From Micromonospora yangpuensis (GTDB lineage: Bacteria > Actinomycetota > Actinomycetes > Mycobacteriales > Micromonosporaceae), in assembly GCF_900091615.1 (NCBI RefSeq), contig NZ_FMIA01000002.1, positions 3,782,001 to 3,846,000 on the forward strand: a DNA stretch of 64,000 nt. The letters run 5' to 3'. Below, one piece after another: positions 16,276 through 40,412 of this stretch (its first letter is position 1; each line of letters begins with the position of its first letter). The notes below the pieces were generated by a model, which was not told where the DNA came from, made no database searches, and worked only from the letters and a program-made list of their open reading frames with translations. The position numbers and the translations under genes are program-made.

Positions 16276-18669
16276 TCAACCCGGCGGGGTGGCCGGATCC
16301 GGCGCCGGTGCGCGGGTCGGGGCGGACCGGGCGGCGGCCCGGCGGGCCAGGGCGTGGGTGAGCAGGCGCTGACCGACGTCCAGGAACCGGCCGTAGGACA
16401 CCGGCGCGACCCGGCCCAGCAGGTCGGGCAGCTTCGCCGACCAGCCGATGAGCACCCGTGGTCGGCGGCGACGCACCCCGGTCAGGATGATCTCGGCGGC
16501 GCGGGCCGGGTCGATGGTGAGCAGTCCCTCGAAGCGGCGCAGGTCGGCGGCGAAGTCCTCGGCGGGCACCCCGCTGCCCATCCGGGCGTTGCGCGCGATC
16601 GAGGTCCGGATGCCGCCGGGGTGCACCGAGGTGACCCCGACGCCGTCGGCCCGCAGTTCGTGCCGCAGCGCCTCGGTGAAGCCCCGGACGGCGAACTTGC
16701 TGGCCGCGTAGGCGGTCTGCCCGGCCGGGGCGATCAGGCCGAAGAGGCTGGAGACGCAGACCAGGTGGGCGCCCGGCTCGGCCTTGAGCGCCGGCAGCAG
16801 GACGTGGGTCAGCTGCACCACCGACCGGAAGTTGACGTCCATCACCCAGCCGAACTCGTCCAGGCTGATCTGGTCGAACCGGCCGCCCAGGGCCACGCCG
16901 GCGTTGTTCACCAGCAGCCGGATCCGCGGGTGCCGGTCCCGGATCTGCTCGGCGACCTCGGCGGTGCGGGTCGCGTCGGCGAGGTCGACGACGTGGCCGG
17001 TGACCTGCTGGTCGGGGTACCGGGTCCGGAGTGCGGTCAGCACCGTGGCCAGCCGCTGGGCGTCGCGGTCCAGCAGCACCAGGTCGCTGCCGCGGCGGGC
17101 CAGACCGTGGGCCAACGCCTCGCCGATGCCGCTGGCGGCACCGGTGACCACGGCGGTGCCGCCGGTGAAGTCGAAGGTACGCATCGGTCTCCTCGCTGCG
17201 GGCGCTGTCGGGGTGACCGGACCGGAGAACCGGACGCCCTCGTCGTCGAGTCGACCGTGCCGCATCAGCAGCAGGTCGCGGGGGTAGTTCTGGTGCAGCC
17301 GCCAGGGGGTGCGGGCACCCTGGCGGGGCAGCTGGTCGACGCTGCGCAGCACGTACCCGGAGCGCAGGTCGATAAGCGGCACCCGGTCGCCGTCGGGTGG
17401 CGGCAGCGGCGTGACGACCCGCTGGCCGGTGCGGTCGAGGTGGCGCAGCAGGCGGCAGACGTACCCGGCGACCAGGTCCGCCTTGAGGGTCCAGGAGGCG
17501 TTGGTGTAGCCGATGGTCAGCGCGAAGTTGGGCACCCCGGAGAGCATCATGCCCTTGTACGCGACCGTCGTGGCCAGGTCGACGTCGGTGCCGTCGACGG
17601 CGAGGGTCAGGCCGCCCAGGGCGAGCAGGTTCAGCCCGGTGGCGGTGACCACCACGTCGGCGGACAGTTCCGCGCCGGAGGCCAGGCGGATTCCGGTTTC
17701 GGTGAGGGTGTCGATCCGGTCGGTCACCACCGAGGCGCGGCCGGCGCCGATCGCGGTGAACAGGTCACCGTCGGGGACCACGCAGAGCCGCTGGTCCCAG
17801 GGGTCGTAACGGGGCGCGAAGTGCCTGTCGACGGGGTAGCCGGCGGGTAGCTGACGGCGGACGGCCCGGCGCAGCAGCCGCCGGGCCACTCCGGGGGCGC
17901 GTCGGCTGAGCTGGTAGCTGACCGTGGAGAACAGCACGTTCCTGCCCCGGACCAGCCGGTGGCCGACGCGTGCGGGCAGCCAGCGCCGCAGCGTGTCGGC
18001 GAGGGCGTCCCGCGAGGGCAGGGCGACCACGTAGCCGGGTGAGCGCTGCAGCATGGTGACGTGGGCGGCCCGCTCGGCCAACGCCGGGACCAGGGTCACC
18101 GCCGTGGCACCGCTGCCGACCACCACCACCCGCCGGCCGGTGTGGTCGAGGTCGGCCGGCCAGTGCTGCGGGTGGACCAGCCGTCCGGTGTACCGGTCGA
18201 GGCCGGGCAGCGTCGGGGTGTAGCCGGCGTCGTACCGGTAGTAGCCGGTGCAGGTGAAGAGGAACGAGCAGGTGAGCACCACCGGCTCGGCGGTGTCGCC
18301 CCGCTCGGCGTGCACCGTCCAGCGGGCGGTGGCGCTGTCGAACTCGGCGCGTACCACCCGGTGCCGGAAGCGGATGTGCCGCTCGACGTCGTACTCCCGG
18401 GCGGTGTCGCGGACGTAGTCGCGGATGGCGTCGCCGTCGGCGATGGCCCGCGGGTCGGTCCAGGGGCGGAACGCGTACCCGAGGGTGTGCATGTCGGAGT
18501 CCGAGCGCACCCCGGGGTAGCGGAACAGGTCCCAGGTGCCGCCGATGGCGTCGCGCGCCTCCAGCACCGCCCAGGTCTTGTCCGGGCAGTCGCGTCTCAG
18601 GTGGCAGGCGGCACCGATGCCGGAGAGGCCGGCGCCGACGATCAGCACGTCGACGTGGTCGCTGGCCAT
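16276..18669 (-). CDS. Fused Baeyer-Villiger-type flavin monooxygenase and short-chain dehydrogenase
   Basis: A 797-residue continuous frame. Residues 1-480 are a flavin monooxygenase: FAD motif GAGLSGIG (12-19), the BVMO fingerprint YTGRLVHPQHWP, and NADPH motif GSGATAVT. Residues 496-797 are a classical SDR: TGAASGIG, NNAG, the catalytic Ser in CVSSLFG and YAASK. The linker is SGPVTPTAPAARRP. The SDR Met (ATG at 17184) is preceded by GAGGAG at good spacing, so the SDR may also be made alone. A ketone made by the SDR could feed the monooxygenase, or the ester product chain be modified; substrate is unknown. Confidence 0.85.
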   Translation of the reverse strand: MASDHVDVLIVGAGLSGIGAACHLRRDCPDKTWAVLEARDAIGGTWDLFRYPGVRSDSDMHTLGYAFRPWTDPRAIADGDAIRDYVRDTAREYDVERHIRFRHRVVRAEFDSATARWTVHAERGDTAEPVVLTCSFLFTCTGYYRYDAGYTPTLPGLDRYTGRLVHPQHWPADLDHTGRRVVVVGSGATAVTLVPALAERAAHVTMLQRSPGYVVALPSRDALADTLRRWLPARVGHRLVRGRNVLFSTVSYQLSRRAPGVARRLLRRAVRRQLPAGYPVDRHFAPRYDPWDQRLCVVPDGDLFTAIGAGRASVVTDRIDTLTETGIRLASGAELSADVVVTATGLNLLALGGLTLAVDGTDVDLATTVAYKGMMLSGVPNFALTIGYTNASWTLKADLVAGYVCRLLRHLDRTGQRVVTPLPPPDGDRVPLIDLRSGYVLRSVDQLPRQGARTPWRLHQNYPRDLLLMRHGRLDDEGVRFSGPVTPTAPAARRPMRTFDFTGGTAVVTGAASGIGEALAHGLARRGSDLVLLDRDAQRLATVLTALRTRYPDQQVTGHVVDLADATRTAEVAEQIRDRHPRIRLLVNNAGVALGGRFDQISLDEFGWVMDVNFRSVVQLTHVLLPALKAEPGAHLVCVSSLFGLIAPAGQTAYAASKFAVRGFTEALRHELRADGVGVTSVHPGGIRTSIARNARMGSGVPAEDFAADLRRFEGLLTIDPARAAEIILTGVRRRRPRVLIGWSAKLPDLLGRVAPVSYGRFLDVGQRLLTHALARRAAARSAPTRAPAPDPATPPG

Positions 18670-18852: not shown

Positions 18853-19482
18853 ATGTTGCAGCTGTGCGAGCTCGTCGCCGTGCCCGACACCGGCCCGCTG
18901 AGCCTGGACGTGGCCGCCGGTGAGATCGCCGCCGTGACCGCCCCCGGCTGGGCGGGCACCGCGCTGGCCCGGGTGGTGACCGGCCTGGCCGCGCCGTGTG
19001 CCGGCCGGATCCGGGTCGGCGACCGGGACGTCACCGACCTGCCGCCGGCCCGCCGGCAGATCGGGTACGTCCCCGCCGGTGGCGCCCTGTTGCCGCAGCT
19101 CACCGTGCGCCGCAACATCGAGTACGGCCAACGCCGGCGGGAGCGGGTGCACGCGGTGGCCGACGACTGGGTGCGTACCGTCGTCGAGCGGCTGGAGCTC
19201 TCCCCGACGTTGGACCTGCGACCACACCTGCTCTCCGACGCCCAGCGGTTCCGGGTCGCCCTGGCCCGCGCGGCGGCCTGCCTGCCGGAGGTGCTGGTCA
19301 TCGACCTGCCCACTGGCGACGACGGCATCGGACGCCTCACCGACGTGCTGCCCCGGCTCGCCCCGCCGGGAGCGGCCGGCAGTGCCGTGCTGGTCTGCTC
19401 CGGCGACCCGAGCGTGCTCGCCGGGATCGGCCGCCTGGTCTCGGTCGGACCGGTCGACCGGCCCGGGGTGACCGGCCGGTGA
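18853..19482 (+). CDS. ABC ATPase-like protein with degraded catalytic motifs
   Basis: A 209-residue protein (GGGGAGG before the ATG) that aligns by eye along a whole ABC nucleotide-binding domain but has lost every catalytic element. Walker A reads APGWAGTAL (Lys and Ser/Thr gone), the Q-loop region is IGYVPAGGALLPQLTV (Gln gone), the signature is LLSDAQRFRVALARA in place of LSGGQ, Walker B is VLVIDLPTG (catalytic Glu to Leu) and the H-loop is CSGDPS (His to Gly). Framework residues are well kept, so it is folded but probably cannot hydrolyse ATP. Its TGA overlaps the GTG of the next gene. Confidence 0.78.
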   Translation: MLQLCELVAVPDTGPLSLDVAAGEIAAVTAPGWAGTALARVVTGLAAPCAGRIRVGDRDVTDLPPARRQIGYVPAGGALLPQLTVRRNIEYGQRRRERVHAVADDWVRTVVERLELSPTLDLRPHLLSDAQRFRVALARAAACLPEVLVIDLPTGDDGIGRLTDVLPRLAPPGAAGSAVLVCSGDPSVLAGIGRLVSVGPVDRPGVTGR

Positions 19483-20783
19483 ACCGGGCCGGGCGGGTGC
19501 GCCGCCGCACGCTGCTGCGCGCCGCCACGGCGGCCTCGGTCCCGACCGCCGTCGGGTTCACCGGCTGCCGGGGCGGGGCCCGGCCGGTCCGGGTGGCCGT
19601 GGTGTGGAGCGCCGACGAGCTGGCCCGGTTCCAGTCGGTGCTGGCCGACTACACCACCGCCACCGGGCTGCCGACCCAGGTGACCAGCGCCGGCGACGAC
19701 ATCGACGCGTTTCTCAATGCCCGCTATCTCGCCGGCACCAGCCCGGACGTGGCGATCCTGCCCCGCCCGGGCCTGGTCACCGAGTACGCCCGGCGCGGCT
19801 GGCTGGCCGAGGTGACCCCGGACGTCGGGTACCGGGCCCCGCGCGGGCTGACCGATCTGCTCTCCCCCGACGGCCGGCGCTACGGGGTCTGGGTGAAGGC
19901 GGCCCACAAGTCGCTGTTCTGGCACTACCCGTCGGTGCTGGCCAGCGAACCCCCGACCACCTGGGACGCGTTGGTCGCCCGCAGCCGGCAACTGGGGACG
20001 CTGGCCAGGTCGGGCACGGGTCCCGCGCCGTTGGCCGTCGGCGCCGCCGACGGTTGGGTGCTCACCGACTGGTTCGAGAACGTCCTGGCCGACGTGACCG
20101 CCCCCCGGGAGTACGACGCCCTGGCCCGGGGCGAGGCCGACTGGGCCGGCCCGCCGGTACGGGACGCGTTGGACCGGCTCGCCGAGATCTGGAGCATCCC
20201 CGGTGCCTTCCCCGGCGGCGGACGGCGGGCCCTGCTCACCCAGTTCCAGGAGTCGGTGATCGAGGTGGTGCACCGACGCAGCGCGGTGCTGGTCTACGGC
20301 GCGGACTTCGCCGGCGGCGTGGCGCAGCGGTTCCGCCGCGGCACCGAGGAGCCAGCGACGTTCCGGTTCCCCGGCGCCTGGGCCCTCGCCGCGCCGTTGC
20401 TGGTCGGCGGGGACGTCGCCGTCGCTTTCACCGGCTCCGGCCCCGGGGCCGACCTGGTGCGCTGGTTCACCCGACGGTCGTCGTTCCAGCGCTGGCGCAG
20501 TGCCGGCGGCTACCTGTCCCCGGACGTCAACGTGCCGACACAGGACTACCCCGACCAGAAGACGCAGCTGCTCGCCGAGCAGCTGCGGACGGCGACCAGC
20601 CCGCGCTTCGACCTGTCCGACCAGCTGCCGGGCCCGTTCACCGGTTCCGACGGCGTCGGCATCTGGCGGATCATGCAGGACTTCTTCGCCGACGTCACCA
20701 CCGGGATCCGCGCCGACGAGGCGATCCGCCGGGCCACCGGCCAGCTCGCCGTGGCGGCCCGCGCGACGGGGCCAGCGCGGTGA
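19479..20783 (+). CDS. ABC transporter extracellular solute-binding protein
   Basis: A 434-residue protein with a GTG start inside the preceding stop (GTGA). The N-terminus has RRRTLLRAATAA followed by GFTGC, consistent with a Tat- or Sec-exported lipoprotein anchored at Cys about residue 27. The body follows the group-1 (sugar-type) binding-protein fold: VRVAVVWSADELARF, then SAGDDIDAFLNARYLAGTSPDVAILPRPG, GVWVKAAHKSLFWHY and W..IM..FFADV. Such proteins deliver a sugar or oligosaccharide to the permease. It is coupled to the pseudo-ATPase and the permease. Confidence 0.85.
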   Translation: MNRAGRVRRRTLLRAATAASVPTAVGFTGCRGGARPVRVAVVWSADELARFQSVLADYTTATGLPTQVTSAGDDIDAFLNARYLAGTSPDVAILPRPGLVTEYARRGWLAEVTPDVGYRAPRGLTDLLSPDGRRYGVWVKAAHKSLFWHYPSVLASEPPTTWDALVARSRQLGTLARSGTGPAPLAVGAADGWVLTDWFENVLADVTAPREYDALARGEADWAGPPVRDALDRLAEIWSIPGAFPGGGRRALLTQFQESVIEVVHRRSAVLVYGADFAGGVAQRFRRGTEEPATFRFPGAWALAAPLLVGGDVAVAFTGSGPGADLVRWFTRRSSFQRWRSAGGYLSPDVNVPTQDYPDQKTQLLAEQLRTATSPRFDLSDQLPGPFTGSDGVGIWRIMQDFFADVTTGIRADEAIRRATGQLAVAARATGPAR

Positions 20784-22573
20784 CACCCGGCAGGCCAGCC
20801 GCGCCGGGAATCCGTCCCCCGGTGCTCGGGGAGATCGCCGTCCTCGACGACGTGGGTCCCCCACGCCGTGGCCGGGCGTACCCGGCGGCGGGCGCCACCT
20901 CGGCGCTGTTGCTGCCGGCGGGGCTGCTGCTGGGTGGGCTGCTGCTCTGGCCGGTGCTGCGGACGTTGCACGCCAGCGTCACCACCGACGGCCGGTGGGT
21001 CGGCGCCGACCACTTCCGGACGGCCTGGGCCGGGCCGGGCACTCCGGCGGTGGTGGGTCGCACGTTGCTCTGGGCCCTGGTGGTGCCCGCCGTGGTGACG
21101 GCGCTGGGTTACCTGCTGGCCACCGCGACCGGCCGTTCCGCCTCAGGTCGACTGGTCCGGCTCATCCTGGTGCTGCCGATCGGTGTCCCGCTGGTGGTCA
21201 CCGGGGTGACGTTCCGGCTGATGTACGACCCGGACCCGACCCGGGGACTGGCCACCTCGCTCGCCGCGCGACTGACCGGGGCGTCGGTGGAGACGACGCC
21301 GCTGCTGCTCGGTCCCCGCCTGGTGACGGTGGCCCTGATGTCGGCGTTCGTCTGGGCCTGGGTGGGCCTGGCGGTGGTGGTGTTCCGGGCCGCGCTGGAC
21401 GCGGTGCCGCCCAGTCTGGCCGACGCCGTCCGGGCCTACGGCGGCAGCCGGCGCGACGTGTTCTGGGACGCGCAGTGGCGGCCGTTGCTGCTGCGTACCG
21501 TGGCGGTGGTCTTCGCCCTGGTGGCGCTCGGCACCAGCCGCACCTTCGACCTGATCCTGATCATGGTGCCCGGATCGGTGCGCGACGACGCCGCGGTGCT
21601 CGCGGTGCGGGTCTGGCAGACCTCCGGCGGCACCACCACCGGCGAGGGAGCCGCGCTCGGGGTGATCTGGCTGGCGGCCGTGGCCGTCGGGATGCTGGTG
21701 GCCGCGCTCTTCGTCCGGCAGGCCTGGCCCCCGCCCCGGCACGTCGACCCGCCGCCGGACGATCCGCCGCCGGCACCGGCGCGCCGGTTACCCCGCCTGG
21801 TCGCCGCGGGCGCCGCGATCGTCTGGTTGGTGCCGTTGGCGACGCTGGTCGTGACGTCCCTGCACGCCCCGGTCGACGCCGCGGCGGGATGGTGGTCCGC
21901 CCCGCCGAGCGTGGACTCCTACGCCACCGTGCTGTCCGGCGCGGAACTGTGGCACAGCCTGCTGTTCACCCTGGCCCTCGCGACCGTGGTGACCGCGACG
22001 GTGCTCGGGGTGGCGCTGCTGGCGGCGTACCCGTTGGCCTGGTTGACCGGGCCGGCCGCCCAGTTCACCGGGTTGCTGCTGATGGCCGCGGTGGTGGTCC
22101 CGGTGCAGGTGGTCGCCGGCCCGGTCAACGAGGTCCTCGGCGCGGTCCTCTCCTCCGGCACCGCCCGAGGCCTGGCCCTGGTGCACATCGCGTTGGGTCT
22201 GCCCTTCGCGGTGTTGGTGCTGCGCAACGCCTTCGCCGACCTGCCGGCCGACCAGGTCCGCGACGCCCGGCTCGGTGGTCGGCACTGGTGGGGCACGGTG
22301 GCGCGGTTGGCCCGGCACAACCGGCCGGCGGTGGTCGCGGTCTGTGTGCTGGAGTTCGTCCAGGTGTGGAACGACCTGGTGGTCGGGTTGCTGTTCAGCG
22401 GCGCCGACGCCGCACCGCTGGGGTTGTTCCTGCACGGCCAGACCCGGCACTTCGTGGCCAACAGCGGCGTGTTGACGGCCGGCTCGGTGCTCGCCTCGAT
22501 CCTGCCGGTGGTGCTGGTCGTGCTGGCCCGTCGGCAGCTCGTCGTGGGCCTGGTCGCCGGTGGTGTGCGGTGA
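20780..22573 (+). CDS. Double-length ABC sugar-type permease (MalF/MalG-like fusion)
   Basis: A 597-residue membrane protein starting at GTG 20780 within the previous stop. The first half (about 30-310) holds six hydrophobic segments and an EAA-like loop DAVRAYGGSRRDVFW; the second (about 335-597) again has six and an EAA-like loop DARLGGRHWWGTV. In most importers these are two separate subunits; here a Pro-rich linker (PPPDDPPPAPARR) joins them. The EAA loops normally dock onto the ATPase; both are degenerate at the usual EAA residues, in keeping with the degraded ATPase partner. Confidence 0.82.
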   Translation: MTPGRPAAPGIRPPVLGEIAVLDDVGPPRRGRAYPAAGATSALLLPAGLLLGGLLLWPVLRTLHASVTTDGRWVGADHFRTAWAGPGTPAVVGRTLLWALVVPAVVTALGYLLATATGRSASGRLVRLILVLPIGVPLVVTGVTFRLMYDPDPTRGLATSLAARLTGASVETTPLLLGPRLVTVALMSAFVWAWVGLAVVVFRAALDAVPPSLADAVRAYGGSRRDVFWDAQWRPLLLRTVAVVFALVALGTSRTFDLILIMVPGSVRDDAAVLAVRVWQTSGGTTTGEGAALGVIWLAAVAVGMLVAALFVRQAWPPPRHVDPPPDDPPPAPARRLPRLVAAGAAIVWLVPLATLVVTSLHAPVDAAAGWWSAPPSVDSYATVLSGAELWHSLLFTLALATVVTATVLGVALLAAYPLAWLTGPAAQFTGLLLMAAVVVPVQVVAGPVNEVLGAVLSSGTARGLALVHIALGLPFAVLVLRNAFADLPADQVRDARLGGRHWWGTVARLARHNRPAVVAVCVLEFVQVWNDLVVGLLFSGADAAPLGLFLHGQTRHFVANSGVLTAGSVLASILPVVLVVLARRQLVVGLVAGGVR

Positions 22574-24927
22574 CCGGTCCCCGGACGCCCCGCTGGCCGG
22601 CCGCGGTGGCGGTCCTCACCCTGGTCGGCGGGGTGCTGGGCAACGTGGCCAGCAACCTGCTCGCCGGGCTGGCCGACACGATGCTCGGGCCGGCCAGCAT
22701 CGTGCTGGCGGTGGTCGGTGCGGTCGCCTCCGTGGTGGTCGAGATCCGCCGGCGGCGGGTCGAGCGGGAGCCGGCCGCCGAGCCGACGGACCTGGTCACG
22801 CCGGCCACCGGCGCGCCCTCCCTGCCCTATCCGGCCGGCTTCACCGGCCGGGCCGAGCAGACCGGGGCCATCGTGGCGGCACTGCTACGCGAGCACGCGG
22901 TGGCCGTGGTCGGGCGGCGGGCGGCGGGTACCTCGTCCTGCGCCGTGCAGGCGGCCAACCTGTGCCGGGACCGGTTCCCCGACGGCCACTACTACGTGGA
23001 CCTGCGCCGGGGCGGGCGGCCCCGCTCGGCCCGGGAGGTGCTCACCGCGCTGGCCCGCATCCTGGGCACCACGCCACCGGCGTCGGGTCGGGCCGACGAT
23101 CTGGACGAGGCCGCCGACGAGTTGCGCCGGCAGCTCGACGGCCGGCAGATCCTGCTGGTACTGGACAACGTGGACCGGGCGGCGCAGGTACGCCCGCTGC
23201 TTCCCCCGGCCGCCAGGACGTGTCGGCTGCTGCTCGCCGGTGGTCCGGCGCTGGCCTCGCTGGAGGGGCTGGTGGCGTACTGGCTCGCCGAGCCGGACAC
23301 CGCCGACGCGGTGGAGCTGTTCGCCGCCGCCGGTGGCACCGCGCCGACGCCCCGGGTCCACCGGCCCGACCCGCGCACCGACCCGGCGGTACGCGAGATC
23401 GTCGAGGTGTGCGGGCGGCAACCGCGCACCGTCCGGGCCCTGGGCTACCGGACCGCCCAGCACGGTTGGCGCTACTCCGACGTGCGGGACACCCTGCGCC
23501 GGGCGGTCGAGACCGCGCCGCACCAGCGGGTACCGGTCTCCCCGGCGGCCCGGTTGGTCACCGACCGGGACACCGCCTACCACGCGCTGTCGGCGCGGGC
23601 CCGGCGACTGTACCGGCTGATGTCGCTCAGCCCGGTGCCGTTGGACCGGCCGACGCTCGCGGCCCTGGCCGGACGACGCTGGACCGACGTGGCCACGCTC
23701 CTCGACGAGCTGGCCGCGGCGGCGTTCGTGGTCGGTGCCGCCGGTGACCGGTACGAGGTGCGTCCGCTGCTGGCCCCGTACGCCCGACTGCACCTGCGCG
23801 AGGCCGAGCCGGTCGCCGCGCGGGTCGCCGCGCAGGCCCGGCTGACCCGGCACCTGGCCCGACGGGCCGAACGGCACGCGGCGAACCTGGCGGTCACCGT
23901 CTCGTTGCTGAACCGGGGGCGGTCGCTGCCCCTGGAGGACGATCCGGCGGGCTGGTTCGACCTGCACCAGGACCTGCTGCTCGCGGTGGTCAAGGTGCCG
24001 GCCGGAGCGGCCGAGACGCTGCCCCGACGGATCCGCCGGTGGTGGTTCCGGCTGGCGGTGGCGCTCTGCGGCTGGCTGGCCCACGCCGACCGGCTCGACG
24101 AGTGGGCCGAGGTGTGCCGGATCGTGCTGGACATGCCGACCGCCGGCGACCGGCCGGAGATCGCCGGCTGGGCGCACAACGAGCTGGGGGTGCTCCGGCG
24201 CCGGCGGCACGACCCGCAGGGTGCGGCGGCGGCGCTCACCCTGGCGGTCGCCGAACGTGGTCGGCGGGGCACCGCGCAGGCCCGGATGAACCTCGGTCTG
24301 GCCCTGCTGGACCTCGGGCAGGTCGACGACGCGGTGGAGCACCTGGAGTTGTCCCGCCGGCACCGCTCCGCCGCCGACCGGGCCGGGATCGCCCTGACCG
24401 ACCTGGGGCTGGGCGCGGCCCGGCTGGCCCGGGGCGAGCTGGAGACCGCCCACCGGCACCTGGTCCGGGCGGCCAACACGTTCAGGCTGCTCGGCGACGC
24501 CCGGGGCTACGCGGCGGCCCTGACCAACCTGGTGCTGGTGCACGCCGGTCTCGGTGAGCACCTCGACGCCGCGCAGGCCGGGCAGGCGGCGCTGCGGGAG
24601 TACGAGTCGGTGGCCGACCCCGCCACCCGCGCCACCGCGCTGCTCAACGCCGGCGCGACCCTGCTGACCAGCGTCCCCGGGCAGGCGCGGGAGGCGTACG
24701 AGCTGCTGGCCGAGAGCCACCGGCTGCGGGACTCGCGACGCCCGACGGCGGGGCTGGGGCGTACCCTGCTCTATCTGGGCGACGCGGCGGCGGCGCTGGG
24801 CGACCACACCGAGGCCCGCCGGCGGTGGACCGACGCGGCGGACCTCGGCGAGGAGGTCGGTGACCCGGCCGGCCAGGCGGCGGCCGACGCCCGGTTGATC
24901 GGCGAGGGTGGCCCCGCGTCCCGCTGA
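22570..24927 (+). CDS. Membrane-anchored STAND-type NTPase with TPR repeats and a degenerate P-loop
   Basis: A 785-residue protein with GTG start overlapping the permease stop. Two hydrophobic segments (12-32 and 37-55) precede an NB-ARC-like region. The P-loop reads VVGRRAAGTSSCA, with Thr where Lys should be; Walker B ILLVLDNVD is kept. A winged-helix-like part follows (LYRLMSLSPVPLDRPTLAALAG), then at least six TPR-like helical pairs from about 500 (AHNELGVLRRRR, RMNLGLALLDLGQVDDAVEHL, TNLVLVHAGLGEHLDAA). Such proteins normally sense a signal and oligomerise on ATP. Coupling to the transporter suggests it reads transport or ligand state; that is inference. Confidence 0.8.
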   Translation: MTGPRTPRWPAAVAVLTLVGGVLGNVASNLLAGLADTMLGPASIVLAVVGAVASVVVEIRRRRVEREPAAEPTDLVTPATGAPSLPYPAGFTGRAEQTGAIVAALLREHAVAVVGRRAAGTSSCAVQAANLCRDRFPDGHYYVDLRRGGRPRSAREVLTALARILGTTPPASGRADDLDEAADELRRQLDGRQILLVLDNVDRAAQVRPLLPPAARTCRLLLAGGPALASLEGLVAYWLAEPDTADAVELFAAAGGTAPTPRVHRPDPRTDPAVREIVEVCGRQPRTVRALGYRTAQHGWRYSDVRDTLRRAVETAPHQRVPVSPAARLVTDRDTAYHALSARARRLYRLMSLSPVPLDRPTLAALAGRRWTDVATLLDELAAAAFVVGAAGDRYEVRPLLAPYARLHLREAEPVAARVAAQARLTRHLARRAERHAANLAVTVSLLNRGRSLPLEDDPAGWFDLHQDLLLAVVKVPAGAAETLPRRIRRWWFRLAVALCGWLAHADRLDEWAEVCRIVLDMPTAGDRPEIAGWAHNELGVLRRRRHDPQGAAAALTLAVAERGRRGTAQARMNLGLALLDLGQVDDAVEHLELSRRHRSAADRAGIALTDLGLGAARLARGELETAHRHLVRAANTFRLLGDARGYAAALTNLVLVHAGLGEHLDAAQAGQAALREYESVADPATRATALLNAGATLLTSVPGQAREAYELLAESHRLRDSRRPTAGLGRTLLYLGDAAAALGDHTEARRRWTDAADLGEEVGDPAGQAAADARLIGEGGPASR

Positions 24928-25025
24928 GGGAGCCGACCCGGCTGAGGGATCGGCCCTGAGTGCGGGAGCCGCCCCGGCAGGGGCACCCGCCCCGGACCCC
25001 GACGAGCACGAGGAGGCCGTCCCAC

Positions 25026-25862
25026 GTGTCGGAGACCCCCCGCCAGTTGCGGGCGGACTGTTTCCGGTGCTTCGCGCTCTGCTGCGTCGCACCGGCCTTC
25101 GCCGCCTCGGCCGACTTCGCCCTGGACAAACCCGCCGGGCGGCCCTGTGCCCACCTGGCCGGTGACTTCCGGTGCGGCATCCACGGGCAGCTGCGTGACC
25201 GGGGCTTCGCCGGGTGCACGGTCTTCGACTGCTTCGGCGCCGGCCAGCAGGTCTCCCAGGTCACCTACGGTGGGCGGAGCTGGCGCGACCAGCCGCGGTC
25301 GGCGGCGCAGATGTTCGACACCTTCGCCGTGCAGCGGCACCTGCACGAGCTGCTGTGGTACCTGACCGAGGCGGTGGCGCTGGGCCCGACCGAGCCGCTA
25401 CGCGGCCAACTGCGGCGCGCGGTGGCGGAGACCCTCCGGCACACCGACGCGAGCCCGGCGGAGCTGCTGGCGCTGGACGTCGACGCCCACCGGGCCACGG
25501 TCAACGTGCTGCTGTCGCGCGCCAGCGAACTGCTGCGTGGTCGCGGCGGGGCCGACCGGCGCGGCGCGCAGCTGGTCGGGGTCGACCTGCGCCGGGTACG
25601 CCTGGTCGGGGCCAACCTGCGGGGCGCGGTGCTGGTCGGGGCGGACCTGCGCGGCGTTGACCTCACCCGGGCCGACGTCACCGGGGCCGACCTGCGCGGC
25701 GCCGACCTGCGCGGGGCGGACCTGCGGCGCACGCTCTTCCTGCACCGCGCCCAGCTCGACGCGGCCCGGGGTGACCTGCGCACCCGGCTGCCGGCGTCGC
25801 TGTCCCGGCCCGCACACTGGTCAGCGCTGCCGCTCACCCCGACCCGCCGCGCCACCCGGTGA
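25026..25862 (+). CDS. Pentapeptide-repeat protein with Cys-rich N-terminal region
   Basis: A 278-residue protein from the GTG at 25026 (GGAGG upstream). The N-terminal 70 residues are Cys-rich (CFRCFALCC, CAHLAGDFRCGIHGQL, GCTVFDCFGAGQ), resembling a zinc- or Fe-S-binding module. The C-terminal ~85 residues carry about twelve A(D/N)L-type pentapeptides (LVGVDLRRVRLVGANLRGAV onward), predicted to form a right-handed beta-helix. The same N-terminal module plus pentapeptides is common in actinobacteria; function is unknown. It lies 98 bp after the STAND gene on the same strand and could belong to that operon. Confidence 0.8.
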   Translation: MSETPRQLRADCFRCFALCCVAPAFAASADFALDKPAGRPCAHLAGDFRCGIHGQLRDRGFAGCTVFDCFGAGQQVSQVTYGGRSWRDQPRSAAQMFDTFAVQRHLHELLWYLTEAVALGPTEPLRGQLRRAVAETLRHTDASPAELLALDVDAHRATVNVLLSRASELLRGRGGADRRGAQLVGVDLRRVRLVGANLRGAVLVGADLRGVDLTRADVTGADLRGADLRGADLRRTLFLHRAQLDAARGDLRTRLPASLSRPAHWSALPLTPTRRATR

Positions 25863-26037: not shown

Positions 26038-26265
26038 TCAGTCCAGGTGGATCGCGCCGGCCGGGCAGAGGTCGACGGCGCGACGGACCCGCTCGACGCT
26101 CTGCGGTGCCGGCTCGGCCACCCGCAGCAGCACCAGACCGTCGGTGTCGTCCTGTTCGAAGACCTCCGGGGCGGTGAGCACGCAGTTGCCGGAGCCGCAG
26201 CAGACGTCCCGGTCCACCCGCAGGCGCACCGTCGTCTCCGGCGGGGCCGGCCGGTCGGCGCTCAC
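26038..26265 (-). CDS. Small ferredoxin of a P450 system
   Basis: A 75-residue ferredoxin. Cysteines occur as CCGSGNC (with the first Cys of the second pair position replaced by non-Cys) and a distal CPAGAI, the three-cysteine spacing of [3Fe-4S] ferredoxins that serve actinobacterial P450s. The GTG start at 26265 overlaps the stop of the P450 gene (GTGA), giving tight coupling. It most likely passes electrons to the P450 encoded upstream; the reductase is elsewhere. Confidence 0.88.
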   Translation of the reverse strand: MSADRPAPPETTVRLRVDRDVCCGSGNCVLTAPEVFEQDDTDGLVLLRVAEPAPQSVERVRRAVDLCPAGAIHLD

Positions 26266-27488
26266 CAGCTGACCGGAAGCACGTCGAGGCCGAAAACCAC
26301 CGCGTTGTCCCGGATCGGCAGTTGTTCCGGCTCGGCGGTCACCCGCAGGTCGGGGAAGCGCCGGGCCAGCCCCACCAGGGCCAGCCGCAGCTCGGCGCGG
26401 GCCAGCGGCTGACCGATGCACTGGTGCACACCGAAGCCGAAGGCCAGGTGCTGGTGTGCCTGGCGGTACGGGTCGAACCCCTCGGCGTCGTCGAAGACCT
26501 CGGTGTCCCGGTTGGCCAGGGCGATCAACACGATGACCCCCTCACCGGCTCGGATCAGCTGCCCGCCGATCTCCACATCCTCGGTGGCCACCCGGGCCAG
26601 TCCGGTGCGCACGATGCTGAGGTAGCGCAGCAGCTCCTCGACCAGATCGGCGACGCGTTCGGGCTCGTCGCGCAGCAGGGCGAACTGGTCGGGTCGCCGG
26701 GTCAGCAGCAGGACGCTCAACCCGAGCATGTTGGCGGTCGTCTCGTGGCCGGCGATGAGCAGCAGCAGCGCCATGCCGACCAGCTCGTCGAGCTCCAACT
26801 CCCCCGGCTCGACCCGTTCCCGGACCAGGCGGCTGAGCAGGTCGTCGGCGGCGGCGTCGGGGTGGGCCAACCGCTCCTGGGCCAACTGCCGCAGGTAGCT
26901 CTGCAGCTCCCGGACGGCGGCCTGCACCCGCTCCATCGGCTCGTTGCGGCTGAGCAGGGTGCGGCTGTGGGCCTGGAAGAAGTCGTGGTCGGCGTAGGGC
27001 ACGCCGAGCAGGTGGCAGATCACCATCGACGGCAGCGGCAGGGCGAACGTCGACACCAGGTCGGCCGGTGGACCGACGGCGGCGAGGTCGTCCAGGCAAC
27101 GGTCGACGGTCTGCGTGATCAGCGGCTCGATCCGCCGGACATTCTTGATCATGAACTCGGCGGTGAGCATCCGCCTCAGTCGACTGTGCTCGGCGCCGTC
27201 CATCCGGATGAACGAGCCCTTGCCGTCCTCGGCGGTCTGCGGCGGCAGGGGACGCAGCAGGGGGAAGCCGGGCCGGGTGAGGTCGGAACTGAAGGCCGGG
27301 TGGCGCAGCAGGCGACGCACGTCGGCGTGCCGGCTGACCAGCCAGGCAGTGGCCCCGGTGGGCAGCCGGACCCGGGTCACCGGGGCGGCGTAGCGCTCCT
27401 GCTCGTCCTCGGCCAGCAGGGCGAAGGGGCCGCGGGCGGCGTTCACCGGCGGCCACACGGGCAATTCAGCCTCGACGGAACGGGTCAT
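26262..27488 (-). CDS. Cytochrome P450
   Basis: A 408-residue bacterial P450. The start is the ATG at 27488, preceded by GGAGGTG; longer frames add a non-homologous leader. The I-helix oxygen-activating motif is AGHETTAN (about 243-250), the K-helix ExxR lies in ELLRYL, and the heme loop is FGFGVHQCIGQPLAR (Cys at about 350). The RMDGAEHSRLRRML and ALANRDTEVF blocks match hydroxylating P450s of secondary metabolism. It is divergent from a TetR-controlled operon; two 16-bp palindromes lie in the shared promoter region. Substrate is unknown. Confidence 0.93.
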   Translation of the reverse strand: MTRSVEAELPVWPPVNAARGPFALLAEDEQERYAAPVTRVRLPTGATAWLVSRHADVRRLLRHPAFSSDLTRPGFPLLRPLPPQTAEDGKGSFIRMDGAEHSRLRRMLTAEFMIKNVRRIEPLITQTVDRCLDDLAAVGPPADLVSTFALPLPSMVICHLLGVPYADHDFFQAHSRTLLSRNEPMERVQAAVRELQSYLRQLAQERLAHPDAAADDLLSRLVRERVEPGELELDELVGMALLLLIAGHETTANMLGLSVLLLTRRPDQFALLRDEPERVADLVEELLRYLSIVRTGLARVATEDVEIGGQLIRAGEGVIVLIALANRDTEVFDDAEGFDPYRQAHQHLAFGFGVHQCIGQPLARAELRLALVGLARRFPDLRVTAEPEQLPIRDNAVVFGLDVLPVSW

Positions 27489-27574
27489 CGGGGGCACCTC
27501 CCGCAGCGACTCCTCGTATTCATGTCGTTGCGAAACGTTACCCATCGGCACACATCTACACAAGACCCGACCAC

Positions 27575-27624
27575 TTGAGCGATCGCTCAAAAGCGACTAC
27601 GCTCCGATTTGAGCATCCGCTCAA
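27575..27624. promoter_or_regulatory. Twin 16-bp palindromic operators (TetR-type)
   Basis: TTGAGCGATCGCTCAA (27575-27590) is a perfect palindrome; TTGAGCATCCGCTCAA (27609-27624) has the same 6-bp arms with an imperfect centre. Centres are 34 bp apart. They lie in the 151-bp gap between the divergent P450 and the operon ending in a TetR gene, which is the likely binder. Confidence 0.75.
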
Positions 27625-36690: not shown

Positions 36691-38541
36691 ATGGACGTAC
36701 CCGCCGGAGCCGACCGGCTGCTGCGCTGGGCGGTACGCGCCGGCGGCGGCTGGACGTTCGGGCTGGCGGTGGTCGCCCTGGCCGGTGCGGTCGCCGAGTT
36801 GCTGCTGCCGCTCACCCTCGGCCGCGCCGTCGACGCCGCCCTGGGCGGCGACGGCGGCTGGTGGCCGGTGGCCGCCTGCGCCCTGGTGGCCCTCCTGATC
36901 GTCACCGACACCGTCGGCGACCTGGCCACCGGGTACGGGGCGGCGCGGGCCACCGAACGGGTCCGCGTCCGCCTGCTGCGCCACCTGTTCGCACTCGACG
37001 TCCGGCAGGTCCGCCGGTATCCGGTGGGTGACCTGGTGGGCCGGCTGGTGGCCCAGGCCGCCGACACCGGGCAGGCCGGCAACGCGGTGGTGCTGGGCGT
37101 CGTGTCGCTGCTGCCGCCGGTGGGCAGCGTGGTCGCGTTGACCCTGCTGGAGCCGGTGCTGGGGCTGACCCTGCTGGCCGGGCTCGTGGTGCTCGCGGTG
37201 CTGATGCGGGCCTTCGTCGCCGACGCCTCCGCCGCCGTCGGGGCGTACCAGCGGACCCTGGGCGCGATCGCCGGGCGGCTGCTGGAGGCCAGCGGCGGGG
37301 CGCGTACCGTCGCCGCCGCGGCCACCACCGACCGGGAGGTCGACCGGGTGCTGACCACCCTGCCCGAGCTGGCCCGGCACGGCCGGCACGGCTGGCAGGC
37401 GCTGGCCCGGGCCAGCGCCCGGACCGCCGCCGTCGCGCCCCTGCTCAGCCTGGCCGTGATCGCCGTCGGCGGGTACGCCCTCAGCGCCGGCTGGCTCACC
37501 CCGGGGGAACTCGTCGCCGCCGTCCGGTACGCCGCCCTCGGCGCCGGCCTGGGCGCGGTGGTGGCCACGCTCAACCGGCTGGTCCGCAGCCGGGCCGGGG
37601 CCGGCCGGGTCGCCGAGCTGCTGGCCCGACCGGCCACCCCGGACGGACACCGGCCGGTGCCGGCGGGTCGGGGTGCGTTGCGGCTGCACCGGGTGACCGT
37701 ACGTGCCGACGACGGACGACCGATCCTCGACGGCGTCGAGCTGGACGTGCCGGCCGGCGCCACGCTGGCGGTGGTCGGGGCGTCCGGGGCCGGCAAGTCC
37801 ACGCTCGCCGCGGTGGCCGGCCGACTGTACGACCCCGACGAGGGCGAGGTGCTGCTGGACGGGGTGCCGTTGGCCGAGTGGGACCACGCCGCGTTGCGCA
37901 CCGCGGTGGGCTACGCCTTCGAGCGGCCGGTGCTGGTCGGGGCGACCATCCACGAGGCGGTCGGCCTGGCGCTGCCGCCCGGATCCGCCGCCCCACCCGC
38001 CGGTTCCGCGCCGGCCGGCGCGGCGGTGCTGCGGGCGACCCGGGACGCCGCCATCGCCGACTGTGTCGCCCGGCTGCCCGACGGCTTCCGGACCCGCACC
38101 GAGGCCGCGCCGCTGTCCGGCGGCGAGGCACAGCGGTTGGGGTTGGCCCGGGCGCTGGCCGCCGGGCGGCTGCTCATCCTCGACGACGCGACGTCCAGCC
38201 TGGACACCGCCACCGAGCACCGCATCGCCCGCGCGGTGGCCGGACGGGCCGGTGACCGTACCCGCCTGATCGTCACCCACCGGGTCGCCACCGCGGCGGC
38301 GGCGGACCTGGTCGCCTGGCTCGACGCGGGCCGGCTACGGGCGGTCGGCCCGCACCGACGGCTCTGGGCCGACCCGGCCTACCGCGCGGTCTTCACCCCC
38401 ACCGACCCGGTCGCGACACCGCGTGGCCCGGCGGATGCGACCGCGGCGACACCGGGCGGGCCTCCCGCCCCACCCACCGGCCCGACGGCCGCTGCCGGCA
38501 CCCCGGCGGGTACGCCGGCCGGGACCGGGGGGAAACGGTGA
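36691..38541 (+). CDS. Lanthipeptide exporter, ABC half-transporter (RamA/AmfB-like)
   Basis: A 616-residue fused membrane/ATPase protein. Six hydrophobic segments span about residues 20-290. The nucleotide-binding domain has Walker A GASGAGKST (about 363), signature LSGGEAQRLGLARAL and Walker B LLILDDATSSLD, where Asp replaces the usual Glu after the Walker B Asp. The acidic residue is conservative, but hydrolysis at this site may be weak, as in heterodimeric exporters with one degenerate site. The Pro/Ala-rich C-terminal 50 residues are low complexity. It overlaps the next exporter gene by 4 bp, and the two likely form a heterodimer. Confidence 0.9.
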   Translation: MDVPAGADRLLRWAVRAGGGWTFGLAVVALAGAVAELLLPLTLGRAVDAALGGDGGWWPVAACALVALLIVTDTVGDLATGYGAARATERVRVRLLRHLFALDVRQVRRYPVGDLVGRLVAQAADTGQAGNAVVLGVVSLLPPVGSVVALTLLEPVLGLTLLAGLVVLAVLMRAFVADASAAVGAYQRTLGAIAGRLLEASGGARTVAAAATTDREVDRVLTTLPELARHGRHGWQALARASARTAAVAPLLSLAVIAVGGYALSAGWLTPGELVAAVRYAALGAGLGAVVATLNRLVRSRAGAGRVAELLARPATPDGHRPVPAGRGALRLHRVTVRADDGRPILDGVELDVPAGATLAVVGASGAGKSTLAAVAGRLYDPDEGEVLLDGVPLAEWDHAALRTAVGYAFERPVLVGATIHEAVGLALPPGSAAPPAGSAPAGAAVLRATRDAAIADCVARLPDGFRTRTEAAPLSGGEAQRLGLARALAAGRLLILDDATSSLDTATEHRIARAVAGRAGDRTRLIVTHRVATAAAADLVAWLDAGRLRAVGPHRRLWADPAYRAVFTPTDPVATPRGPADATAATPGGPPAPPTGPTAAAGTPAGTPAGTGGKR

Positions 38542-40412
38542 ACGGCGCCCGGGTGGGTGCCGGGGTGGGCCGGGTCACCTGGCGGGCGCTGCGGGACCGA
38601 CGGTCGGCGGTCGGCCGGCTGGCCGGCTGGTCGGTGCTGGAGTCGCTGCCGACCCTGCTGACCGGCTACCTGCTGGCCCGCGCGGTGGACCAGGGATTCC
38701 TCGCCGGACGGTTCGGTACCGGCCTGGCCTGGCTCGCGCTGCTCGCGACGGCCGTGCTGATCGCCGCGGCGGCCACCGGCCGGGTGTACCGGGGGCTCGG
38801 CGCGGTGGTGGAGCCGTTCCGCGACGACCTGGTGACCCGGGTGGTCACCGCGACCCTGCACGACGCCACCCGGGCCGCCGCACCGGCCACCGCCGACCCA
38901 CCCGGCACGACGGTGATCCGGGAGCCGCGCAGCGCGGCGGTGATCCGGGAGCCACGCAGCGCGGCGGTGACCCGGGAGCCACGCAGCGCGGCGGTGACCC
39001 GGCTGACCCACCAGGTGGAGCTGGTCCGGGACACCTTCGGCGGCCTGCTGATGGTGGTACGCGGCTTCCTGTTCTCCGGCACCGCGGCCCTGCTCGGGCT
39101 GCTCGCCCTGGCCCCGGTGGTGGCTGCCCTGGTGGCGGTGCCGCTGGTGGTGGGTCTGGCGGTGTTCGCGGCGGCGTTGCCCGCGATGGCCCGCCACCAG
39201 GGCGGGTACGTGCGCGCCGGTGAGACGCTCGGCGAGGCGGCGGCCACCGCCCTGGCCGGGCACCGCGACGTCTGGGCCTGTGGCGCGCAGGACCGGGTGG
39301 TCGCCGAGGTCGACCGGCGGGTACGCGCACAGGCCACCGCCGAGCGGACCGTGGCCCGGATGACCGCGGTCCGCAGCATCAGTCTCGGGCTCGGCGGTTG
39401 GCTGCCCCTGGCGGTGCTGCTCTTCGCCGCGCCGTGGCTGGTCCGCCAGGGGTTGACCCCCGGGGAGGTGCTCGGCGCGCTGGTCTACGTCAGCACCGGC
39501 CTGCAGCCGGCCCTGCACGCCCTGGTGCAGGGGGTGGGCGGCGGCGGGCTGCGGTACGTGGTGACGTTGGACCGGATCCTGCGCACCAGCGTCCCGCCCA
39601 CCGGTCCGACCTGGACCGGTCCCCCGGTCGGCGGCACACCGACGATGGCCCCCGGGCGGGTCGGTACCGGCCCGGACACGCCGGTGGCCGGGCGGCTGTG
39701 CCGGGTCACCTTCCGGCACGGGCCCCGGGCTCGGGCCGTACTCTCGGATTTCTCCCTCACCCTGCCGGCCGGCGACCACCTGGCCGTGGTCGGCCCCAGC
39801 GGGGTCGGCAAGTCCACCCTGGCCGCCCTGCTGGCCGGCCTGGTCACCCCGGAGGCCGGCACGGTCGAACTGGCCGGACGCCCGGTGCGGGGCACCCCAC
39901 CGGAGGTGCTGGCCGGGCGGCGGGTGCTGGTGCCGCAGGAGGCGTACGTCTTCACCGGCACGCTCGCCGACAACCTGTGCTACCTCCGACCGACGGTGGA
40001 CGCGGCGGCGCTGTGGGCCGCGCTCGACGCCGTCGGCGCCGGGGCCTTGGCCGACCGGCTCGGTGGGCTGGCCGCCCCGGTCGACCCGGCGCGGCTCTCC
40101 GCCGGTGAGCGGCAGCTGATCGCCGCCGCCCGGGCCTGGCTGGCCCCCGCCGCACTGGTGATCCTCGACGAGGCCACCTGCCACCTGGACCCGGCCGCCG
40201 AGGCACGGGTGGAGGAGGCATTCGCCGCCCGCGACGGCACGCTGCTGGTGGTGGCGCACCGGATCAGCTCCGCGCTACGGGCCCACCGGGTGCTGGTCCT
40301 CGACGGTGGCACACCACAGCTGGGTGGGCACCGGGAACTGCTGGACCACTCGGCGACCTACCGGGAACTGGTCGGCTACTGGGACGATCAGGCGGTACTA
40401 CCGGCGCGGTGA
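38538..40412 (+). CDS. Lanthipeptide exporter, ABC half-transporter (RamB/AmfA-like)
   Basis: A 624-residue partner of the preceding exporter, starting at GTG 38538 inside its stop. The ATPase domain has Walker A GPSGVGKST (about 420), signature LSAGERQL and a full Walker B VILDEATCHLD with catalytic Glu. Between membrane segments 2 and 3 it contains three tandem copies of a nine-residue unit VIREPRSAA/VTREPRSAA (DNA 38913-38993), an insertion not expected in such a loop. It exports the modified peptides; leader removal by a protease is not seen here. Confidence 0.9.
   Translation: MNGARVGAGVGRVTWRALRDRRSAVGRLAGWSVLESLPTLLTGYLLARAVDQGFLAGRFGTGLAWLALLATAVLIAAAATGRVYRGLGAVVEPFRDDLVTRVVTATLHDATRAAAPATADPPGTTVIREPRSAAVIREPRSAAVTREPRSAAVTRLTHQVELVRDTFGGLLMVVRGFLFSGTAALLGLLALAPVVAALVAVPLVVGLAVFAAALPAMARHQGGYVRAGETLGEAAATALAGHRDVWACGAQDRVVAEVDRRVRAQATAERTVARMTAVRSISLGLGGWLPLAVLLFAAPWLVRQGLTPGEVLGALVYVSTGLQPALHALVQGVGGGGLRYVVTLDRILRTSVPPTGPTWTGPPVGGTPTMAPGRVGTGPDTPVAGRLCRVTFRHGPRARAVLSDFSLTLPAGDHLAVVGPSGVGKSTLAALLAGLVTPEAGTVELAGRPVRGTPPEVLAGRRVLVPQEAYVFTGTLADNLCYLRPTVDAAALWAALDAVGAGALADRLGGLAAPVDPARLSAGERQLIAAARAWLAPAALVILDEATCHLDPAAEARVEEAFAARDGTLLVVAHRISSALRAHRVLVLDGGTPQLGGHRELLDHSATYRELVGYWDDQAVLPAR
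38913..38993 (+). repeat. Three 27-bp in-frame tandem repeats in an exporter gene
   Basis: Units at 38913, 38940 and 38967 begin GTGATCCGGGAGCC (third: GTGACCCGGGAGCC) and encode V-I/T-R-E-P-R-S-A-A. The near identity suggests recent slippage expansion. Confidence 0.85.

Follow-up and report, generated by a model that had tools for sequence, protein, structure and literature searches.

A four-gene Micromonospora cassette encoding ABC and STAND proteins with lost nucleotide motifs: a candidate transporter-derived, ATP-independent ligand sensor

Why would a bacterium keep, in open and overlapping reading frames, an importer-type ATPase and a STAND protein that have both lost the residues used to handle ATP? 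This question is raised by a four-gene cassette in a 64,000-nucleotide stretch of the Micromonospora yangpuensis genome (contig NZ_FMIA01000002.1, positions 3,782,001 to 3,846,000; host genome G000, 6.5 Mb), here called the window, whose numbering is used for all coordinates. The cassette encodes, in order, a protein of the ABC nucleotide-binding domain (NBD) type, a solute-binding protein (SBP), a fused permease and a STAND protein with tetratricopeptide repeats (TPR). The four plus-strand genes share 4 bp (GTGA) at each of their three junctions, and both the coordinates and the overlaps proposed in an initial annotation of this DNA were confirmed from the sequence. By Pfam profile search, the proteins matched ABC_tran (E-value of 7.1e-16), SBP_bac_1 (1.4e-7), BPD_transp_1 (3e-6, over two stretches of one protein) and TPR_12 (1.6e-9), and among the protein matches listed the best named relatives were from Micromonospora species. 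By analogy with known systems, we lean towards reading the cassette as a transporter-derived, ATP-independent ligand sensor.

The NBD was aligned over 67 rows of the genus, composed of the window and 66 fetched loci; the corresponding alignments of the SBP, permease and STAND protein were of 66, 64 and 61 rows after those cut by contig ends or too short were dropped. Smaller alignments (A1-A4; 25, 22, 22 and 22 rows) and two wider sets were also used, the latter consisting of the window plus 56 of the best 120 of 2148 protein matches (A7, for the NBD) and the window plus 58 of the best 120 of 315 (A8, for the STAND protein). The ABC framework of the NBD was found to be retained, as had been claimed, based on its Pfam match, a confident AlphaFold2 model (mean pLDDT of 93) and best PDB fold matches to AlgS, MalK and CysA. 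Within this fold, the Walker A Lys, Q-loop Gln, LSGGQ, Walker B Glu and H-loop His reported as lost in the initial annotation were absent, the replacement motifs it quoted were present, and the changes were fixed across the genus rows. The Walker A Lys was replaced by Thr, the Q-loop Gln by Ala and the Walker B Glu by Leu in all 67 rows. The LSGGQ positions read Ser (63/67), then Asp, Glu or Ala, then Ala (64/67), then Gln, and the switch His position was occupied by Ser or Thr in 67/67 rows or, with the alignment shifted by one, by Ala, Ser, Gly or Thr; a His stands 1 or 2 residues beyond this position in two rows. Thus, of the residues expected in an active importer (Walker A Lys, LSGGQ, Walker B Glu and switch His), the Walker A Lys and Walker B Glu were each found in none of the 67 rows. 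Among the other NBDs of the host genome, GK[ST] was kept in 20/20 sampled.

The same loss was detected beyond the genus. When NBDs under other genus labels of the family were inspected by eye, no Walker A Lys was seen in the 13 that were readable (the fourteenth, L132, is frameshifted), and in the wider set of 57 rows of listed matches this position was Thr (42), Arg (14) or Asn (1) and never Lys, with the Walker B Glu kept in one row. Relatives with an intact Walker A, named beforehand as a sign of recent decay, were therefore absent from all three sets of orthologue rows (67, 13 and 57). In the most distant member (L131) Walker A reads GPSGFGGTT, where the missing Lys is the sole change from the canonical motif. 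Conservation within the NBD was 0.945 from the Q-loop into the next, permease-docking helix, 0.955 in the Walker B strand and 0.54 in the D-loop. We read this pattern as a kept permease-docking surface combined with a relaxed nucleotide interface, the structural meaning of the docking segment and D-loop being established for type-I importers.

The STAND protein was found to carry an NB-HD-WHD core followed by a repeat sensor, as judged by PDB profile match, structure model and Foldseek. The earlier observation of a P-loop with Thr for Lys beside an intact Walker B was borne out: the P-loop position was Thr in 58/61 genus rows and Lys in none, and in the wider set of 59 rows of listed matches it was Thr in 56 and Lys in none, with the Walker B Asp present in 59/59. 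The Lys-to-Thr change that the initial annotation proposed to search for in relatives is thus common to both proteins across the genus. A GTS P-loop was also seen by eye in 14/14 distant STAND loci, including one from another family (L147). Two losses beyond those described earlier were detected by comparison with four canonical relatives: at the sensor-1 position, at least 55 of the 59 rows have Gly, Thr, Ala, Ser or Val instead of Arg, and the His of the winged-helix domain (WHD) was found in none, with Arg standing in its place in 56. Of the residues expected of a STAND protein that switches between ADP and ATP, the P-loop Lys and WHD His were thus missing from all 59 rows and the sensor-1 Arg from at least 55. 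Three relatives of the STAND protein (P0235, P0236 and P0237, one of them from an Acidimicrobiales metagenome-assembled genome) carry an N-terminal helix-turn-helix (HTH) that replaces the membrane helices, and their P-loops, GTS or GSS, also lack the Lys; the change is therefore older than the membrane-anchored form or has recurred. These HTH-bearing proteins did not turn up in named genomes, by one scan and one peptide pattern, or in 296 genomes of the phylum.

The structure model of the STAND protein placed two helices at its N-terminus (residues 9-29 and 41-65) at low confidence, and by a simple hydropathy scan, 52 of the 61 rows have a pair of predicted membrane segments, 7 have a single one and 2 lack any. 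The NCBIfam HaaT model (NF041717) aligned over nearly the whole protein and the AfsR model over the STAND core, both far below cut-off (116 bits for HaaT, compared to a curated cut-off of 1125). The best PDB match of the model by E-value was the MalT homologue PH0952 (6mfv, E-value of 2.3e-11), with a TM-score of 0.31 and rmsd of 24, which indicates similar domains in a different arrangement. Elsewhere in the host genome, four STAND-like genes were seen by eye to read GKS or GKT at the P-loop within the stretch fetched, and a fifth (L175) showed no P-loop there. A frame beside a HaaT-model match (L174) of the same genome reads GMTGVGRT, which is P-loop-like with Arg instead of Lys; thus, the cassette protein is not entirely alone in the host genome in lacking this Lys. 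A short HaaT-model match was also found in the window itself (about 54673-54930, plus strand) within a 735-residue frame, with a GEPGSGKS P-loop in the same fetched stretch (L173), and is perhaps a second STAND/NACHT-like gene.

The remaining two proteins complete a type-I importer architecture of SBP, two permease domains and NBD fold (Pfam, NCBIfam, AlphaFold2 and PDB matches). An RRxLL-type N-terminus was present in 66/66 rows of the SBP and a lipobox-like site in 65/66. PDB profile matches were to sugar importers: the second permease half matched SugB, and the SBP matched NagB2, which binds chitin oligosaccharides. An intact relative was found in another family of the order (L148); its ATPase carries GPSGCGKTT, LSGGQ, DEP and the switch His, and is encoded with an SBP and two separate permeases and no STAND gene. 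This relative and the profile matches support the derivation from a sugar importer put forward in the initial annotation. An alignment of 22 window-type SBPs has 147 invariant columns, 89 of which are identical in the L148 SBP (overall identity of 37%), and the NBD was 35% identical to the L148 ATPase over 142 residues. By these alignments, the SBP keeps the conserved blocks of its family, while it is precisely the catalytic blocks that the NBD has lost. An alignment of the fused permease with the L148 frames (A6) was poor, as these frames include ends that lie outside the genes, and was not used. A natural fusion of permease and STAND protein (P0173, 1379 residues) was excluded as evidence, being an apparent frameshift product with a garbled permease end. 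In the intact importers, the first permease has a large insert between membrane helices (L148:3701-5131 and L149:7088-8287).

The loss of the NBD motifs is old and is most simply explained by a single event, since the dead residues are fixed in the genus, in other genera and in the wider set, and the proteins that carry them form a single group in the tree. In this tree, 21 pseudo-NBDs were separated from 25 intact NBDs by a branch with 100/100 support that is long (1.26 changes per column). The NG86 ratio of nonsynonymous to synonymous substitution (dN/dS), with pairs restricted to a dS of 0.1-0.8, had medians of 0.41 for the NBD, 0.41 for the SBP, 0.26 for the permease and 0.34 for the STAND protein. 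Plain dN/dS is inflated by the third-position GC content of 0.93-0.95, and differences by codon position were therefore added for 30 greedily chosen independent pairs. By this approach, the NBD differences were 0.066 for codon position 1, 0.054 for position 2 and 0.175 for position 3, and the mean of the first two values over the third was 0.34 for the NBD, 0.44 for the SBP, 0.25 for the permease and 0.31 for the STAND protein. Third positions of the NBD thus change about three times as much as first and second positions, unlike the dN/dS near 1 that had been given as a mark of decay. The view that the loss was selected, and not decay, is supported by these codon-position differences together with the fixed dead residues, the coupled junctions and the single tree group.

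The cassette was found to occur largely as a unit. Orthologues of the NBD were detected in 67 of 160 genus genomes with E-values of 1.4e-66 or better, the next matches (from 3.7e-27) being paralogues, and the STAND gene was likewise present in 67, of which 66 were shared. The NBD without a STAND gene (G038) lies on a contig of 5,012 bp that stops inside the permease. The STAND gene without an NBD (G025) is a remnant with two stops, and NBD, SBP and permease are absent from the 16 kb fetched. This remnant sits between homologues of the genes that flank the cassette in the window, encoding a flavin monooxygenase-like (FMO) protein and a pentapeptide-repeat protein; the pentapeptide-repeat homologue was not found in 66 other genus loci, which indicates that G025 shares the window's own site. 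At this site, the losses of cassette genes go together. All four genes were present in 63/66 fetched genus loci, the remaining three of which stop at contig ends, and the 4-bp overlap was found at 66/66, 63/65 and 54/63 of the successive junctions when starts were picked in favor of it where possible. In a search of 300 genomes, the cassette was detected under other genus labels of the family in 14 genomes of 11 labels, with all four genes in 13 and the last truncated by a contig end; the most distant member has the overlap at all three junctions. The conserved four-gene system predicted in the initial annotation was thus recovered when its synteny was checked. Among 148 genomes of the class, only matches to the second permease half were found besides the host genome (in 19), and thus the fused form with STAND protein is, in the sampled genomes, confined to the family and L147.

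Of 10 flanking genes compared across 7 loci from other genera, a DUF3159 gene was the only one to recur (in L124 and L132), and with flanks this variable the cassette has the look of a module that is largely complete in itself. Two candidates for a fifth cassette gene, both recognized by eye, were rejected as not universal: a downstream ABC-2-like exporter, located 10-140 bp 3' in 28/66 loci and at 1.7 kb in one more, and an upstream WYL/YafY-like regulator in 40/66 loci. Neither is beside the cassette of the window. The exporter-type gene that follows the STAND gene (among L031-L075) encodes an intact ATPase, mostly together with a large permease gene.

What is observed is the order and coupling of the genes, their co-occurrence, one joint loss and dead motifs that are fixed in the NBD and STAND protein; beyond this, we infer, by analogy, ligand sensing and signaling through the STAND/TPR protein. 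The four products would assemble in the membrane into a single complex that descends from a CUT1-like (type-I) sugar importer and in which the ATPase subunit has become unable to use ATP. The lipoprotein would bind an extracellular sugar-like ligand and dock on the fused permease, which would change shape on docking of the ligand-bound form. The pseudo-ATPase, presumably still fitted to the permease loops, would relay this change to the membrane-anchored STAND/TPR protein, which may serve as a scaffold that needs no nucleotide and that captures or releases an output partner whose gene lies elsewhere. The HTH-bearing relatives give a hint that this output is transcription.

The closest parallel is the maltose system of E. 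coli, where idling MalFGK2 anchors the STAND activator MalT via MalK and frees it on transport (excerpts of PMC10427625 and PMC6468293), MalK gripping MalT by its C-terminal domain (excerpt of PMC6468293). The cassette would resemble MalFGK2 holding MalT, yet as a dedicated receptor and not a transporter with a side job. Judging from gene coupling and co-occurrence, both systems would combine a CUT1-type sugar importer with an ATPase that controls a STAND protein with a TPR sensor; they differ in that ATP is used by MalK and MalT, that MalT is soluble and activates by binding DNA, and that the contact domain of MalK is missing from the cassette NBD. With type-I CUT1 importers such as LpqY-SugABC, the cassette has in common the SBP, permease and ATPase folds (with matches to SugB, MalK and AlgS) and differs by its fused permeases, dead ATPase and added STAND/TPR partner. 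The STAND core and TPR region are likewise found in actinobacterial HaaT- and AfsR-like proteins (NF041717 and NF053617), from which the cassette protein is distinguished by its lost nucleotide motifs and low model score. Transporter-derived nutrient receptors, including yeast transceptors, Ger spore receptors and the S-component fold, serve sensing (excerpts of PMC5890159, PMC8617281 and PMC11109136). Importer-controlled STAND signaling as such is already known. To our knowledge, and as far as the excerpts extend, none of the transceptors, Ger receptors or S-component proteins combines an ABC importer that depends on an SBP with a STAND partner. In open-licence PMC literature, no description of a dead-ATPase importer with a STAND protein was recognized among the matches listed, which for the longest result sets were the best-ranked ones. 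Tentatively, the cassette may represent a distinct class of bacterial receptor, in which an SBP-dependent ABC importer has become a wholly nucleotide-independent sensor, with pseudo-ATPase and pseudo-STAND protein as conformational scaffolds, and which is encoded as a compact four-gene module in Micromonosporaceae and at least one neighboring family.

Several findings weigh against a sensor of this type. The NBD is absent from 93 of the 160 genus genomes, and the SBP or STAND gene is disrupted in 4/66 loci (L054, L072, L084 and L085). At 209 residues, the NBD has no MalK-type C-terminal domain with which to contact a MalT-like partner. Of the EAA-type coupling loops of the permease, the first is partly kept and nearly invariant and the second is more altered. 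The SBP, in which the ligand pocket may or may not be kept, is overall no closer to its L148 counterpart than is the NBD, and no output gene was evident among the 10 flanking genes of the 7 loci of other genera. The gene disruptions, together with naive dN/dS medians (0.26-0.41) that are not very low, would also fit recent decay into pseudogenes whose frames are open by chance. This explanation was rejected as extremely improbable based on dead residues that are identical genus-wide, the single tree group and the codon-position pattern of the NBD, to which the coupled junctions may be added. Patchy presence (67/160 genus genomes) would suit a defense or cell-death switch, in which the STAND protein with its two membrane helices is an effector restrained by a transporter-like complex and released on attack; the STAND architecture, and Avs3 and plant NLRs among the Foldseek matches of the model, point in the same direction. 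We consider such a switch improbable, as PADLOC gave a single weak TPR match for one of the four proteins and nothing system-specific, no Pfam effector domain was found, conservation is lowest, out of six segments, in the N-terminal helices (0.66) and the linker that follows (0.62), and the nucleotide switch motifs are gone.

The main rival to sensing is that of a real importer powered by a shared, intact ATPase of the MsiK type; the pseudo-NBD would then join a mixed dimer in a structural or regulatory role, and the STAND protein would act as a regulatory accessory. The host genome encodes an intact ATPase (L181) that groups with the L148 ATPase at 100/100 and which we take to be MsiK-like. 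ATPases common to several type-I importers are known (PMC7658222 and PMC4890002). The good conservation of SBP and permease would also be in accord with transport. However, the pseudo-NBD has lost both halves of the nucleotide sandwich, such that a mixed dimer would be damaged at each of its two sites. The Walker A Lys is usually kept in known asymmetric ABC dimers. A private pseudo-NBD in all 66 fetched loci, moreover, fits poorly with its replacement by a shared subunit, and overall we regard this explanation as unlikely. The open and conserved frames of permease and SBP next to dead ATP motifs could alternatively reflect an ATP-independent facilitator, through which solute passes down its gradient with the pseudo-NBD merely holding the permease together; this leaves unexplained the near-constant STAND/TPR partner (in 66/67 genomes with the NBD) and its parallel loss of nucleotide motifs, and its probability appears as low as that of a defense switch. 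If the cassette is instead an ATP-independent sensor, two kinds of protein that are textbook users of ATP, an ABC importer and a STAND protein, would cooperate without it. It would then offer a compact and genetically tractable system for how transporter conformations become signals and how a STAND protein works without nucleotide exchange. The public annotations of the NBD and STAND homologues, mostly 'ATP-binding cassette domain-containing protein' and 'tetratricopeptide repeat protein' among the matches listed, would misdescribe these genes in many Micromonospora genomes.

Table 1. Coordinates of the cassette genes and of selected sites within them.
Feature	Position	Strand	Evidence
Pseudo-ABC ATPase (NBD-like), 209 aa, without C-terminal regulatory domain	18853..19482	+	Pfam, alignment, AlphaFold2, PDB fold matches
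Former Walker A motif APGWAGTAL (residues 30-38), with Thr36 in place of Lys	18940..18966	+	Thr in 67/67 rows
Former Q-loop Gln, replaced by Ala75, in VPAGG	19075..19077	+	Ala in 67/67 rows
Former Walker B catalytic Glu, replaced by Leu152	19306..19308	+	Leu in 67/67 rows
Solute-binding lipoprotein (SBP), 434 aa, SBP_bac_1, twin-Arg (RRxLL) and lipobox-like N-terminus	19479..20783	+	Pfam, PDB profile match, alignment
Lipobox Cys30	19566..19568	+	Invariant in 22-row alignment
Two fused type-I importer permease domains, 597 aa, 12 predicted transmembrane segments	20780..22573	+	Pfam, NCBIfam, alignment, PDB profile match, hydropathy
Membrane-anchored pseudo-STAND/TPR protein, 785 aa	22570..24927	+	Pfam, PDB profile match, structure model, Foldseek
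Predicted pair of membrane helices at N-terminus of STAND protein, residues 9-65 (modelled with low confidence)	22594..22764	+	Hydropathy, model
Former STAND P-loop motif GRRAAGTS (residues 115-122), with Thr121 in place of Lys	22912..22935	+	Alignments
Former winged-helix His of STAND core, replaced by Arg398	23761..23763	+	Arg in 56/59 rows

The adjoining upstream gene (16276-18669, minus strand) is divergent and encodes the FMO domain fused to a short-chain dehydrogenase; a relative was found upstream on the opposite strand in 44/66 genus loci. Directly 3' of the STAND gene (24960-25862, plus strand) is the pentapeptide-repeat gene, the product of which has a Cys-rich N-terminus ahead of the repeats. 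A cytochrome P450 gene follows (26262-27590, minus strand) with an adjoining frame that is ferredoxin-like by eye. Two neighboring ABC ATPase matches, exporter-like by eye, were detected in long frames at 37726-40178 (plus strand).

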